Positions 3,578 through 12,970 of a stretch of 30,691 bases of DNA are shown piece after piece. The notes beneath the pieces were generated by a model. That model worked only from the letters and a program-made list of their open reading frames with translations, did no database searches and had not been told where the DNA came from. Origin of the DNA: a virus. Each line of letters opens with the position of its first letter. The first letter of the stretch is position 1. Position numbers and translations under genes: made by a program. The stretch lies in IMG/VR virus record IMGVR_UViG_3300033145_000390, positions 1 to 30,691 of that record; one strand, given 5' to 3'.

Positions 3578-3724
3578 TCATGTTATGTCTTCGTGTAGTC
3601 TTTTTAGTACGTTGATTGTCCTTTCGTTAACTATTCCTGCTATATGCGAGCATGTCATATATACTAGTATTATGAATAGCTCTGCAGTTGCTAACCAGAA
3701 CAGGATTATTTCTAGCCTAGTCAT
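3578..3724 (-). CDS. Small single-pass membrane protein (48 aa)
   Basis: An ATG at 3724 overlaps the end of the radical-SAM-like gene by eight bases and is preceded by GGATGAAAG. The protein begins MTRLEIILFWLATAELFIIL, giving one membrane helix over residues 4-25, then a polar tail (SHIAGIVNERTINVLKRLHED). The overlap and the clean hydrophobic segment support a real gene. Function unknown; holin- or antiholin-like roles cannot be excluded, but its early-operon position argues against lysis. Confidence 0.6.
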   Translation of the reverse strand: MTRLEIILFWLATAELFIILVYMTCSHIAGIVNERTINVLKRLHEDIT

Positions 3725-4445
3725 CTTTCATCCTTTCCATCGTCGCGAAGTATTCTCGCAGACAATTCCCGCAATGTTTGCAAAGACTCGAGCCAAAAAG
3801 TCCTTCGGTTCCACAGGAGTATACAAGAGGATTAGCTCTGTACGAGAACATTATCTTTCTCCACTTATAGTGGCATATTGCCCAGTATACATTGAGAGTC
3901 CTCTTGCGAAGCTCATAGTTGTTTGCGTGCCCGTCTCGAATTGCTTGAGCCTGACGATACGCCATAAAGGTTAGAACTACAGGTACGCCTTGCTCGGTGT
4001 AGTACTTCACAGCTTTATCTGCGAGATCGAGATTCCAAGTATTTGTGCGGAATCTCACGAACATAAGAGTCTTCGGTATAGTAGTTAGAGTGTGAAAACT
4101 TAGATCCGTCATACCACCAGGGTTTGCTGTAAGTACAAACGGGCTTATAAAGCCATCAGTCCAAGTTGCGTGACAGGTGTTATAGAACTTTCGAGGGTAC
4201 TTCTCGGTTTTCTCAAGTACCATATCTATATCGTTGGTGCTATCGTTCCCGTCATTTACTCGAACAATTCTATCTCCGACTTCCTCAACAGAAGGCATAT
4301 TTGGAGTATTCTTATCAAGAGGTTCTAAATAAGATCTTCCGCCGTTGAAGAAGCACTCATCACAGTTGTTAGGGCAGGCACCTTTTTGCGGGATGCAGCA
4401 GATTATACCACTGCCTTTAGATTTGGGATTCTCGATGTAGGTCAC
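3717..4445 (-). CDS. Radical-SAM-like Fe-S protein of unknown function
   Basis: A 242-residue protein with C24-x3-C28-x2-C31 (ACPNNCDECFF), the spacing of the radical SAM 4Fe-4S motif, right after an N-terminal strand (SGIICCIPQKG). A glycine-rich NGGRSY follows, then strand-like blocks (LMFVRFRTNTWNL, VPVVLTFMAY) compatible with a partial TIM barrel. C211, C222, C225 and C228 form a second cysteine group near the C terminus that could hold another cluster. Start is GTG 4445 with AAGGAGGACAAA upstream, in a GTGA overlap. I recall similar proteins in environmental phages without a known substrate; it does not match the QueE length and motif. Activity is inferred, not proven. Confidence 0.7.
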   Translation of the reverse strand: MTYIENPKSKGSGIICCIPQKGACPNNCDECFFNGGRSYLEPLDKNTPNMPSVEEVGDRIVRVNDGNDSTNDIDMVLEKTEKYPRKFYNTCHATWTDGFISPFVLTANPGGMTDLSFHTLTTIPKTLMFVRFRTNTWNLDLADKAVKYYTEQGVPVVLTFMAYRQAQAIRDGHANNYELRKRTLNVYWAICHYKWRKIMFSYRANPLVYSCGTEGLFGSSLCKHCGNCLREYFATMERMKDD

Positions 4446-8037: not shown

Positions 8038-8072
8038 CTTAATATTCCTTTCGCTGATTATGTTTTAATCTA

Positions 8073-8530: not shown

Positions 8531-8621
8531 TAATAAGTCTCCTTCCATTTTTCGTGAGGACCTGTTTGATAATCCTGCCATCGAACAGTACCTTTACTAT
8601 ATAATCGTTAGTTTCTTTCAT
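8517..8621 (-). CDS. Possible 34-aa basic beta peptide
   Basis: ATG 8621 begins a 34-codon frame ending in TAG at 8517. The product starts MKETNDYIVKVLFDGR and continues IIKQVLTKNGRRLIIVKR, an alternating pattern typical of a small beta-sheet. It overlaps the upstream gene by 14 bases and the next by 14 if that one starts at TTG 8530. Its Shine-Dalgarno is weak (AAAGCAAAG), so moderate confidence only. Confidence 0.45.
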   Translation of the reverse strand: MKETNDYIVKVLFDGRIIKQVLTKNGRRLIIVKR

Positions 8622-9018
8622 CTTTGCTTTGAACTGATTTCTCGTCATTGATAAGGGCATTAGAATTCTCCTTTAACAAATCTGCTATTTCAGTAGCTCT
8701 TTTATCCTGCACATCGCTCAGAACTTCGCTTATCACATCAAGCTGCAAGGCCTTCTTGACTCCTGTTCTATCTCGCAACTGACTCATCTGAAACCCATGA
8801 GACTTTAAGTACTCTAATGCATCGCCTACGTTAAACTTCAAACCTTGGTTTGCAACTGCGTCCATGCATAACCTTATAATGCTTGACCAAGATGATTTGT
8901 GTGCTACATCTTGCTGATTAAACACGCTGATGACACTTGCTAAAGTTCTGACGTCAACATAAGCACTGATAACAATAGAAGGGCAGGTTTTAGACTGGTC
9001 ACTTTCTTGCTGGTTCAT
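8608..9018 (-). CDS. Hypothetical protein, probably helical (136 aa)
   Basis: Starts at ATG 9018 in an ATGA overlap with the preceding stop, with GAGGAGAACTCAGA upstream. The N terminus is polar (MNQQESDQSKTCPS), followed by VISAYVDVRTLASVISVF, a basic SSWSSIIRLCMDAV helix and a GDALEYLKSHGFQMSQLRDR segment that could be a recognition helix. It may be a DNA-binding protein, but no motif is decisive. The C-terminal 20 residues are charged and likely flexible. Confidence 0.75.
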   Translation of the reverse strand: MNQQESDQSKTCPSIVISAYVDVRTLASVISVFNQQDVAHKSSWSSIIRLCMDAVANQGLKFNVGDALEYLKSHGFQMSQLRDRTGVKKALQLDVISEVLSDVQDKRATEIADLLKENSNALINDEKSVQSKDERN

Positions 9019-11172: not shown

Positions 11173-11325
11173 CTACTTCTCCATCTCAAGCACTATATTT
11201 CTCACCTCTATAATCATTTCCTGCACCATCTCGCAGGAATTGATAGCCCTAGAATGCGAGCCATTTATTCCTGCATCTAACTCTACAAACATCATGTTTA
11301 GTAGATTCAGCAGTTCATCTTTCAT
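11173..11325 (-). CDS. Small acidic helical protein (50 aa)
   Basis: ATG 11325 follows GGAGGTGAGAACAA. The product starts MKDELLNLLNMMFVELDAGI, then NGSHSRAINSCEMVQEM and VRNIVLEMEK. It is mostly helical with a net acidic charge. Good ribosome binding site and composition; no family is recognised. It lies between the palindrome of P2 and the long inverted repeat. Confidence 0.6.
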   Translation of the reverse strand: MKDELLNLLNMMFVELDAGINGSHSRAINSCEMVQEMIIEVRNIVLEMEK

Positions 11326-11344: not shown

Positions 11345-11360
11345 TTGTGCTTTAGCACAA
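11345..11360. terminator. Short hairpin TTGTGCT-TT-AGCACAA
   Basis: A perfect 7-bp stem with a two-base loop, just outside the left arm of the long inverted repeat and 20 bases upstream of the 50-aa gene. It has no T-tract on the minus strand. Terminator or leader-structure role is uncertain. Confidence 0.35.
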
Positions 11361-11362
11361 CA

Positions 11363-11661
11363 TGGAACATAAATCTAATTCTAATTCTAATAACCTAAAT
11401 CTAAACCTAAATCTAACTGCCTTTTCCCATTCAAAATCCATAATTATCCGCTCTCACTATGCCATGCTCTATAGTATGTCCCATCCTTACCTTGATATGT
11501 ATCTGTTCTTTTTTTTTTTTTTTTTTTTTAAACAACTACATGGATATACCACTATACCATATAGTATACCGTGGTATATTGCATATATGTGATATGAATG
11601 GCATATGGCAGTTAGATTTAGGATTAGATTTTTAGCTAATTAGAATTAGAAATTCGTTCCA
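11363..11661. repeat. Long imperfect inverted repeat with CTAAWY hexamers, T-tract and nested palindromes
   Basis: The left arm (11363-11433) and the reverse complement of the right arm (11595-11661) match through TGGAAC, CTAATTCTAATT, CCTAAATCTAACTGCC and CCATTCA with a few gaps. Both arms consist largely of tandem CTAAWY hexamers. The 161-base centre holds a run of 21 T (11509-11529) and palindromes at 11544-11579. It contains no gene I can support. The location near the divergent region, strand symmetry and AT-richness suggest a replication origin or a regulatory cruciform. Confidence 0.75.
11544..11579. repeat. Nested palindrome with TATACCA motifs
   Basis: ATATACCAC (11544-11552) pairs perfectly with GTGGTATAT (11571-11579). 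Inside is ACTATA-CCA-TATAGT (11551-11565). The same TATACCA/TGGTATA word appears again at about 12590, 12640 and 12668-12683. Confidence 0.6.
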
Positions 11662-11672
11662 ATTGCATTCTA

Positions 11673-11690
11673 TGACCAAAAATTTGGTCA
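11673..11690. promoter_or_regulatory. Dispersed palindrome, copy 6
   Basis: TGACCAAA-AA-TTTGGTCA, perfect arms with a two-base spacer, just outside the right arm of the long inverted repeat and about 50 bases past the stop of the gene at 11741. Confidence 0.75.
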
Positions 11691-11740
11691 AAGAAGGACG
11701 CCCTTTCCTTCGTAAACATGGTCAGATGTCTAGTTTAAGT

Positions 11741-12295
11741 TTACTTCTTGGCGTCTTTCGCCAGGTTCATCAGCTTTGCCCTTAATATGGGTATATCAGT
11801 CATCCAGGTTGAGTAATCCCTCGGCGCAAGTATCTTACGGTCTTCGACAGTCATAAGATGCCCGTACTTGCTATACAAATCACGGATATCATCAACGACC
11901 TGGTTTGCCAAGCTCAGTTTAGCCTTGAGCTCCGCTTTCTCACCAGGTTTGCGCTCGGAAGGCTTCGGCACTTTCCATTTGAAAGTACTAAGTGCGAGAG
12001 TCTTAAGCGCGTTGTACTTAATTGCAAAGGACTTATCGGGGTTGTCGGTTGTTATCTTATCCCGAACAACCCTTTGACATAAGATATTAATCGATTTGAT
12101 AGCGAATGCTACCAATTCATCTTTTGTCAACTGACTGGTGTCGTATTGTACTTTTATTTCAACACCAGTGTAGCCCTTGCCAGTCGCTGAGTCAACAGCC
12201 TTGTCCGCGCCGTCAGGTCTTACCCTGAAGGACGTCTCGAACTTGTTGTCAGCAACCTTGATTATCTTATCGGTCTTGATTTCTTCATCAGTCAT
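11741..12295 (-). CDS. First leftward gene, unknown function (184 aa)
   Basis: ATG 12295 after GAGGATAATC is preferred to ATG 12307, which lacks a site. The product starts MTDEEIKTDKIIKVADNKFE. Residues 20-60 look beta-rich (TSFRVRPDGADKAVDSATGK), followed by helices with KLSLANQVVDDIRDLYSKYG and a C-terminal RAKLMNLAKDAKK. It might be a DNA-binding or replication-initiation protein because it lies beside the presumed origin and opens the leftward region, but no known domain is seen. Confidence 0.75.
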   Translation of the reverse strand: MTDEEIKTDKIIKVADNKFETSFRVRPDGADKAVDSATGKGYTGVEIKVQYDTSQLTKDELVAFAIKSINILCQRVVRDKITTDNPDKSFAIKYNALKTLALSTFKWKVPKPSERKPGEKAELKAKLSLANQVVDDIRDLYSKYGHLMTVEDRKILAPRDYSTWMTDIPILRAKLMNLAKDAKK

Positions 12296-12970
12296 GATTA
12301 TCCTCATAATGTGTTATAGGGCGGCAGGGCACGAATTACACTTCCGGTCTCCGCCTATCCATGCACATACGCGCACTTCGTATTAAGGCTCGTTCCGGCG
12401 ACGTCCGTCAATACCGCCCTTCGTTGAATAACCAGACACCTGACCATTTATTCATTCGTGCATCGGTTGCGCAGCTCCCATTGGCGGAGTCGTTCCGTTG
12501 TGCTTACGTACTACGACAGCACTATGTATGTTTCCATTACTCGTACATCGTGTTATTATGATTACTCGTGTTCGGTGGGTACATCTATACCATATATAAT
12601 AGCAAACACCGTGCCAACTCGAAAAACCACAACACCTGGTATAATCCACGGTGAGCTATACATCATGTGGTATAGATATACCAATGAGCACATGTCAAAT
12701 GTGGCAGCTTTCATGTCATTCATGCTGTTACGTCATGACATAGCTGCCATAATGGCAGGCCTAGAGGGGGATTTTTGGATTGGGCTATAGTTGACTGCTA
12801 ATTCGGTATATTCTACAAGATTTAGGCATGGAACTTTTATATTCCTGATGGTGCTGTTGGCTCTACCAACGAAGATAAATGTAAGGAAGATAATGCTTGT
12901 GCGGAATATACTACTCCCAGCCCCTCATTTTGAGAATTGCGAGATAACAAGGTTACAATCACGAAATCTA
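12296..12970. other. Divergent intergenic region, no gene supported
   Basis: About 675 bases between the leftward and rightward units. The part from 12310 to 12500 is visibly richer in G and C than the rest. It holds AGGGCGG (12318-12324) and its complement CCGCCCT (12414-12420), TGGTATAGATATACCA (12668-12683), hairpins at 12703-12758, and ATTTTTGG at about 12772. Open frames here lack ribosome binding sites and coding composition. It probably contains control sites and perhaps small RNAs. Confidence 0.6.
12703..12758. repeat. Two overlapping, mutually exclusive hairpins
   Basis: GGCAGCTTTCATGTCA (12703-12718) can pair with TGACATAGCTGCC (12736-12748, with a small bulge). The 3' part CTGCCAT of this arm can instead pair with ATGGCAG (12752-12758) in the perfect palindrome CTGCCATAATGGCAG (12744-12758). 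This is an attenuator-like layout. Confidence 0.5.

Follow-up and report, generated by a model that had tools for sequence, protein, structure and literature searches.

A gapped inverted repeat of tandem hexamers around a run of 21 T residues heads the early operon of this uncultured tailed phage, and a matching arrangement occupies the equivalent position in about 25 other phages that share with it either the capsid gene or an early DNA-binding-like gene. Because these relatives keep the layout in position with different sequences, we conclude that the element is a real conserved control site. Our best reading, to which we attach a probability of roughly 0.4, is that this site, located where the early (replication) operon begins, would act at the DNA level as an iteron/A-tract replication origin. 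The roles of origin, operator and packaging site are mutually compatible and not exclusive. Replication origins and packaging sites have hardly ever been identified in uncultured tailed phages, and an element recognisable by its layout rather than its sequence would help to locate the starting points of both processes in a large group of environmental phages.

Genomic context

The window, the whole stretch of DNA analysed here, comprises bases 1–30691 of a 33,984-base IMG/VR virus record; the record is a fragment, near-complete relatives measuring 43–52 kb. The phage belongs to the Caudoviricetes and is kin to Desulfofustis phage LS06-2018-MD01 (MD01), its closest named relative, at 36% terminase identity; the capsids of MD01 and of the close relative G001 are 42% identical. 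The MD01 genome, assembled from a metagenome as a complete circle, has been linked by CRISPR spacers to a sulfate-reducing host, and a lytic lifestyle is predicted for it (PMC10370329).

Gene calls in the window are mechanical ORFs. The left half contains leftward early/replication genes, including a DnaQ-like exonuclease (2151), a Sak4-like annealing ATPase (2701), a PD-(D/E)XK nuclease (4669) and an ATP-dependent ligase (6600). Rightward structural genes fill the right half, with a terminase (22415) and, as judged by alignment to relatives, a portal-like (23976) and a capsid-like gene (29715). Just past 30691, a short run of Ns interrupts the capsid gene of the record (G000) and leaves 11 X residues in its reading frame, so the contig was scaffolded after the window end. 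We also observe among the early genes a leftward frame (3717–4445) for a 242-aa cysteine-rich protein (CCIPQKGACPNNCDECFF...) that has no Pfam match and is possibly a metal-cluster or radical-SAM-like protein.

Anatomy of the element

The best-matching parts of the two arms, at 11363–11442 and 11586–11661, both contain CTAAnn hexamers. Seven units lie on the plus strand at 11375–11418, and the inverted units of the right arm (TTAGnn) number five on the minus strand at 11612–11649, plus a TTAG at 11632. Alignment of the arms continues past the hexamers to approximately 11353–11481 and 11542–11672, pairing GTTCCA with TGGAAC on the outer side, and AACTGCC with GGCAGTT and CCATTC with GAATGG on the inner side; overall, the arms are about 86% alike. 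Within the 34 kb contig, a density of at least four CTAAWY per 60 bases is reached only in these two arms. The gapped arm alignment scores 102, about 12 sd above the mean of 200 dinucleotide shuffles (33.9, sd 5.7, maximum 53), and among inverted repeats with arms within 700 bases the element is the strongest of the contig (72; runner-up 28). The large CTAAWY inverted repeat with small gaps that a preliminary description had reported around the T run is thus borne out, while the likeness of its hexamers to telomere repeats turns out to be superficial.

Between the arms, the T21 tract (11509–11529, plus strand) corresponds to A21 on the early-transcript strand and occupies the same position as the tracts of relatives. 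A nested palindrome, ATATACCAC(TATACCATATAGTATACC)GTGGTATAT, spans 11544–11579; it had been called perfect, which holds for its 9-base outer arms but not for the whole, since the palindrome is interrupted and continues with an inner TATAC/GTATA pair.

The element sits between a small leftward gene for a 188-aa protein (11741–12307, minus strand), which has a weak homologue in G002 (3.4e-5) and a syntenic counterpart in G001, and the small ORF that opens the leftward early operon (50 aa; 11173–11325, minus strand, start at 11325), preceded by a strong ribosome-binding site (GGAGGTGAG). We found no convincing gene inside the element, in agreement with the preliminary description: a 76-codon plus-strand frame at 11362 merely reads through the T run. 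Searches of the region with Rfam covariance models gave no match at E 0.1, a tRNA search found none, and neither a nucleotide search of the phage collection nor an exact 20-base search of IMG/VR returned a match.

The same layout in related phages

A capsid-profile search yielded 77 related loci, and a second search with the early protein encoded beside the element added about 10 further phages with the same layout. The shared place, upstream of TerL and next to the early promoter, has the early operon on one side and on the other a small leftward gene, which often comes with a terminator. Position, arm complementarity and an AT-rich or homopolymer core are kept, whereas the repeat unit is almost wholly different between lineages, with the arms still complementary. 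Conservation of hexamer number, proposed earlier as a check, is therefore not what we see: number and sequence of the units vary and the layout stays. As to relatives missing the region, the other outcome envisaged at that time, the opposite was found, with relatives carrying the element.

The units and cores differ from case to case. G010 has ATYGTA/TACAAA arrays around A19, G014 ATTGTT-type arrays around A19, G027 TACGTT-type arrays around 24 A/T, and MD01 CCCGTAATC...GTTTTCTG around A17; the contig of G001 ends 100 bases beyond the tract, cutting off the element. In most relatives the core is (TA)n, an A-tract or purine-rich AT, and it is usually purine-rich on the early strand. A scan for A15 picked out one tract each in six genomes; its location was the same in all six and, in five, the A-run lay on the strand opposite to that of the structural genes.

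When each genome was scanned without bias for its strongest inverted repeat, the same place came up in G000, G005, G013, G014, G019, G026, G027, G029, MD01 and G008. The top inverted repeat encloses a homopolymer in 8 of the 12 genomes that have one of at least 9 bases. All 23 elements delimited beat 20 shuffles each (z 3 to 21); their boundaries were drawn by eye after a first look, so that these z-scores are not independent of selection, while the genome-wide ranking is. The automatic scan gave no clear element in G018, G030, G004, G015–G017 and similar contigs, some of which are partial.

The element is not an assembly artefact, because its arms are only about 86% alike and A/T runs recur in five other independent assemblies. 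In fact, the suspicion that the T run is an assembly error is answered by runs of 17–24 A/T at the same place in these five relatives. The exact length of the T run could be wrong by one or two bases; the relatives, too, are metagenome assemblies, in which homopolymer lengths may err by 1–2 bases.

More broadly, we consider it highly improbable that the element reflects chance, an artefact, transposon ends or a telomere-resolution site. Such origins are suggested by the low complexity of the sequence and by arms that resemble terminal inverted repeats or telomere-like hexamers, but chance and artefact are opposed by the shuffle tests and by recurrence in independent assemblies, a complete circular genome among them. 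Transposon ends and telomeres are opposed by the lack of any gene between the arms and by the absence of the protelomerase (PF16684) and tyrosine integrase (PF00589) families from the 16 genomes of the group, the window's genome being a fragment. Telomere resolution, integration and ParA-type partition are thus disfavoured, as their marker genes were not found. We rejected an N15-type telomere-resolution site, which would be a spacer-free near-perfect palindrome, in view of arms that are imperfect and stand 60–160 bases apart. A transposon or integration site was set aside on the enclosed sequence and, as far as tyrosine integrases go, on the recombinase search, and a ribbon-helix-helix-type partition centromere, as far as ParA-type partners go, on the absence of PF13614 from the 16 genomes.

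A role at the DNA level

About 16 of the 23 elements have a sigma-70-like promoter immediately ahead of the arm, with a predicted start −13 to +31 bases from the arm start. This placement raises the possibility that transcription of the early genes starts at the arm and yields an RNA leader folded into a long hairpin, which would control the first genes or resist decay. Arm mismatches on the early strand, where G.U outnumbers A.C by 127 to 69, point the same way, but the excess falls to 68 versus 45 (p 0.04) under a stricter alignment. Moreover, once dinucleotide composition is controlled, both strands fold equally well, with a mean z of −6.18 on each (Stouffer −1.14), and the transcribed strand has no stronger structure than the complementary one; we consequently read the G.U excess as compositional. 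In G005, G029 and Kuura, a consensus promoter lies downstream of the element, which speaks against a leader as its general function. Since the strands fold equally and the promoter may lie on either side of the element, we prefer a function of the DNA itself to an RNA leader, which we now hold to be improbable and have dropped as first choice.

Repeat units and the early DNA-binding-like protein

The early gene at 8608–9018 (minus strand) of the window encodes a protein with a ribbon-helix-helix-like sequence pattern; in the A4 subtype of the family, the pattern is strand-helix-helix, V.VWxDSRxLATL..W...FMSEVVR.PLE.L. Homologues occur in 13 relatives, often starting right at the element border, and a DNA-binding-like gene is often the first gene past the element; in the window, the candidate gene lies 2.3 kb away. 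W01, G029 and G027 have the element, and no homologue of the candidate protein was detected in them. The AlphaFold model of the adjacent protein is poor (pLDDT 48.6), and a profile of the A4 type found no relative in Pfam, PHROGs or the PDB; the ribbon-helix-helix fold is for these reasons a guess from sequence pattern. Two subtypes of the family, compared with 50,697 phage records, gave no match, and no known initiator family was matched.

The unit follows the subtype of this protein. The 15 phages with an A4-type neighbour have a unit in common (TTARTG, TGTCGT): TGTCGT occurs in 12 of these 15 elements (0.7 expected) and in none of 12 others (Fisher p 4e-5), and TTAATG is present in 43 copies in the 15 phages' arms. 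These units face inward: forward copies number 45 in the first half of the elements against 11 in the second, reverse copies 1 against 29. As A4-type elements are otherwise hardly alignable, the simplest reading is that the unit is a binding site for a lineage-specific protein; common ancestry of the A4 subclade can contribute to the sharing.

The element might therefore be read as a pair of inverted operator arrays for an early ribbon-helix-helix-like protein, which would loop across the A-tract core and switch the promoter with no role in replication. An early promoter always adjoins the element, mostly at the distances given above, the protein gene is often nearby and unit sequence tracks its subtype, all of which this explanation would account for. 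Against it, operators do not need complementarity over the full length of the arms, including non-repeated GC blocks and outer arm ends, the long A-tract is left unexplained, and the protein gene lies kilobases off in the window's group and is missing in some relatives. We regard operators for the early protein as a somewhat doubtful alternative that ranks second, close behind the origin.

Similar arrangements are seen in ribbon-helix-helix centromere and operator arrays (omega heptads, ParR/parC), in which short tandem units also stand in opposite orientations and a small ribbon-helix-helix-like protein is encoded alongside. Our phages differ in that no ParA-type partner was found and that they look lytic, and the ribbon-helix-helix fold of their candidate protein is putative.

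A candidate replication origin

We rank a replication origin first because of the anatomy of iteron-like arrays with an AT-rich core, the location right before the replication operon and the phages' own PolA-type machinery for autonomous replication, its polymerase being present in 15 of the 16 genomes. Of the features expected of iteron origins, the element has both tandem direct repeats and an adjacent AT-rich segment (T21 and the AT palindrome). In the mechanism that we propose, a small early DNA-binding protein, for which the 8608–9018 product is the candidate, would load onto the inverted hexamer arrays and pair both arms. The strained AT-rich/A-tract core would then melt, or the arms would fold back, and this, together with transcription from the adjacent early promoter, would allow the phage primase and PolA-type polymerase to start.

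Several observations speak against an origin: a packaged DNA end lies inside the element of Caulobacter phage Kuura, no known initiator family was found, the candidate protein has no family match and yields a poor fold model, its gene is distant from the element in the window, and no homologue was detected in W01, G029 and G027. The preliminary suggestion of an origin with a strand-separation site, or of a structural switch, fits the anatomy and its conservation across relatives and stands as a candidate reading, and the Kuura end points to packaging instead or as well.

Cumulative GC skew, recommended earlier as a check, reaches its minimum at the switch in gene direction, 1–2 kb rightward of the element, in about half of the genomes and elsewhere in the others; the single leftward gene between element and minimum keeps the coding-strand skew. 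Because skew follows the gene strand, it neither supports nor excludes an origin, and we dropped it as a test confounded by gene direction.

Known iteron origins (lambda ori, iteron plasmids) likewise combine short direct-repeat arrays with an AT-rich stretch in the neighbourhood of an early promoter and of a DNA-binding-like gene. In the phage element, by contrast, the arrays are mirrored around the core, the units are 6–9 bases long, the initiator is a candidate and sequence turns over between close relatives. The SV40 and herpesvirus oriS origins, where inverted protein sites flank an A/T tract or palindrome, belong to unrelated viruses with unrelated proteins and are an analogy of design only.

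Packaging and cultured distant relatives

The only experimental landmark comes from Kuura, whose 606-base terminal repeat, defined by PhageTerm, starts at 43208 (PMC9959647). This position falls inside the Kuura element, between its A12 tract and right arm, and favours a packaging role in that phage. By extension, the element could be a packaging or concatemer-junction site, at which a foldback would help the terminase to cut and duplicate the terminal repeat; its location about 2 kb upstream of a putative small terminase gene would suit this function. However, Kuura is a distant relative, at 29% capsid identity, with weaker arms (z 4.0), and MD01 is a circular assembly while several contigs self-close via short overlaps, so that fixed ends are only putative in the clade. 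On balance, we consider packaging as the main role unlikely. Clustering of contig ends near the element was dropped as a sign of packaged ends, since self-closing contigs make such breaks arbitrary and thus uninformative.

A hairpin with such a role has reportedly been proposed for the T7 concatemer junction, and the T7 terminal-repeat boundary resembles the Kuura site in having a foldback near the packaging end. The clade's elements differ in adding tandem arrays and a long A-tract, which to our knowledge are not part of the T7 site, and the mapped end is that of Kuura.

Comparable sites occur in other cultured phages. Kuura (GGGCAGTT arrays, A12), Vibrio phage VS-ABTNL-3 (ATTTTTA arrays, G6-A8-G6 core) and Microcystis phage Mel-JY34 (T9) each exceed 100 of 100 shuffles, and Polaromonas phage Tiera has a similar site; on the basis of position and layout only, these elements may be homologous to those of the clade. 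The PaMx41-related Neko is borderline, with 1 of 100 shuffles as good, and PaMx41 has no inverted repeat in the stretch examined. The layouts of Kuura, VS-ABTNL-3, Mel-JY34 and Tiera may make the element testable in culture. In the corresponding non-coding region of Tiera (L233 43892–44071), we also observe a stretch of about 80 bases that is duplicated in direct tandem (AGTATCCGGTGGGCGCG...GATATAACGAACA, twice).

A wider proposal would combine these roles: a fast-turnover cis element whose layout persists throughout a large set of uncultured phages, its sequence and the protein that reads it being rewritten jointly from lineage to lineage, with one site serving as origin, early-promoter control and packaging junction. 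Taken as a whole, this proposal is quite unlikely. If true, it would show in nature how a repeat array and its cognate binding protein can co-evolve at such a pace that sequence similarity vanishes and architecture stays.

Dispersed palindromes

A near-palindrome, TCTATGACCAAATTTTGGTCAAAG, with close variants, is present in about 11 mostly intergenic copies in both gene modules, at 394, 3552, 8073, 10209, 11136, 11673, 12971, 18358, 23943 and 28576 of the window and at 31077 of the contig (14 matches versus 2.2 expected). Several copies directly precede a ribosome-binding site. One, TATGACCAAA.TTTGGTCAAA at 11671–11692, borders the inverted-repeat element on the side of the upstream gene, and in G001, as in G000, a dispersed copy borders the element. 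The palindrome sequence of the window is absent from six relatives. Relatives have dispersed palindromes of their own, of similar size, such as CTTGTTAACAAATTGTTAAAGAG in G001 and TTTCGACAGAATCTGTCAAAACT in G004, with copies at 2120, 2771, 7713 and 14911 of L031 and at 8059 and 13552 of L147; it looks as though every phage possessed operator or promoter sites of its own.
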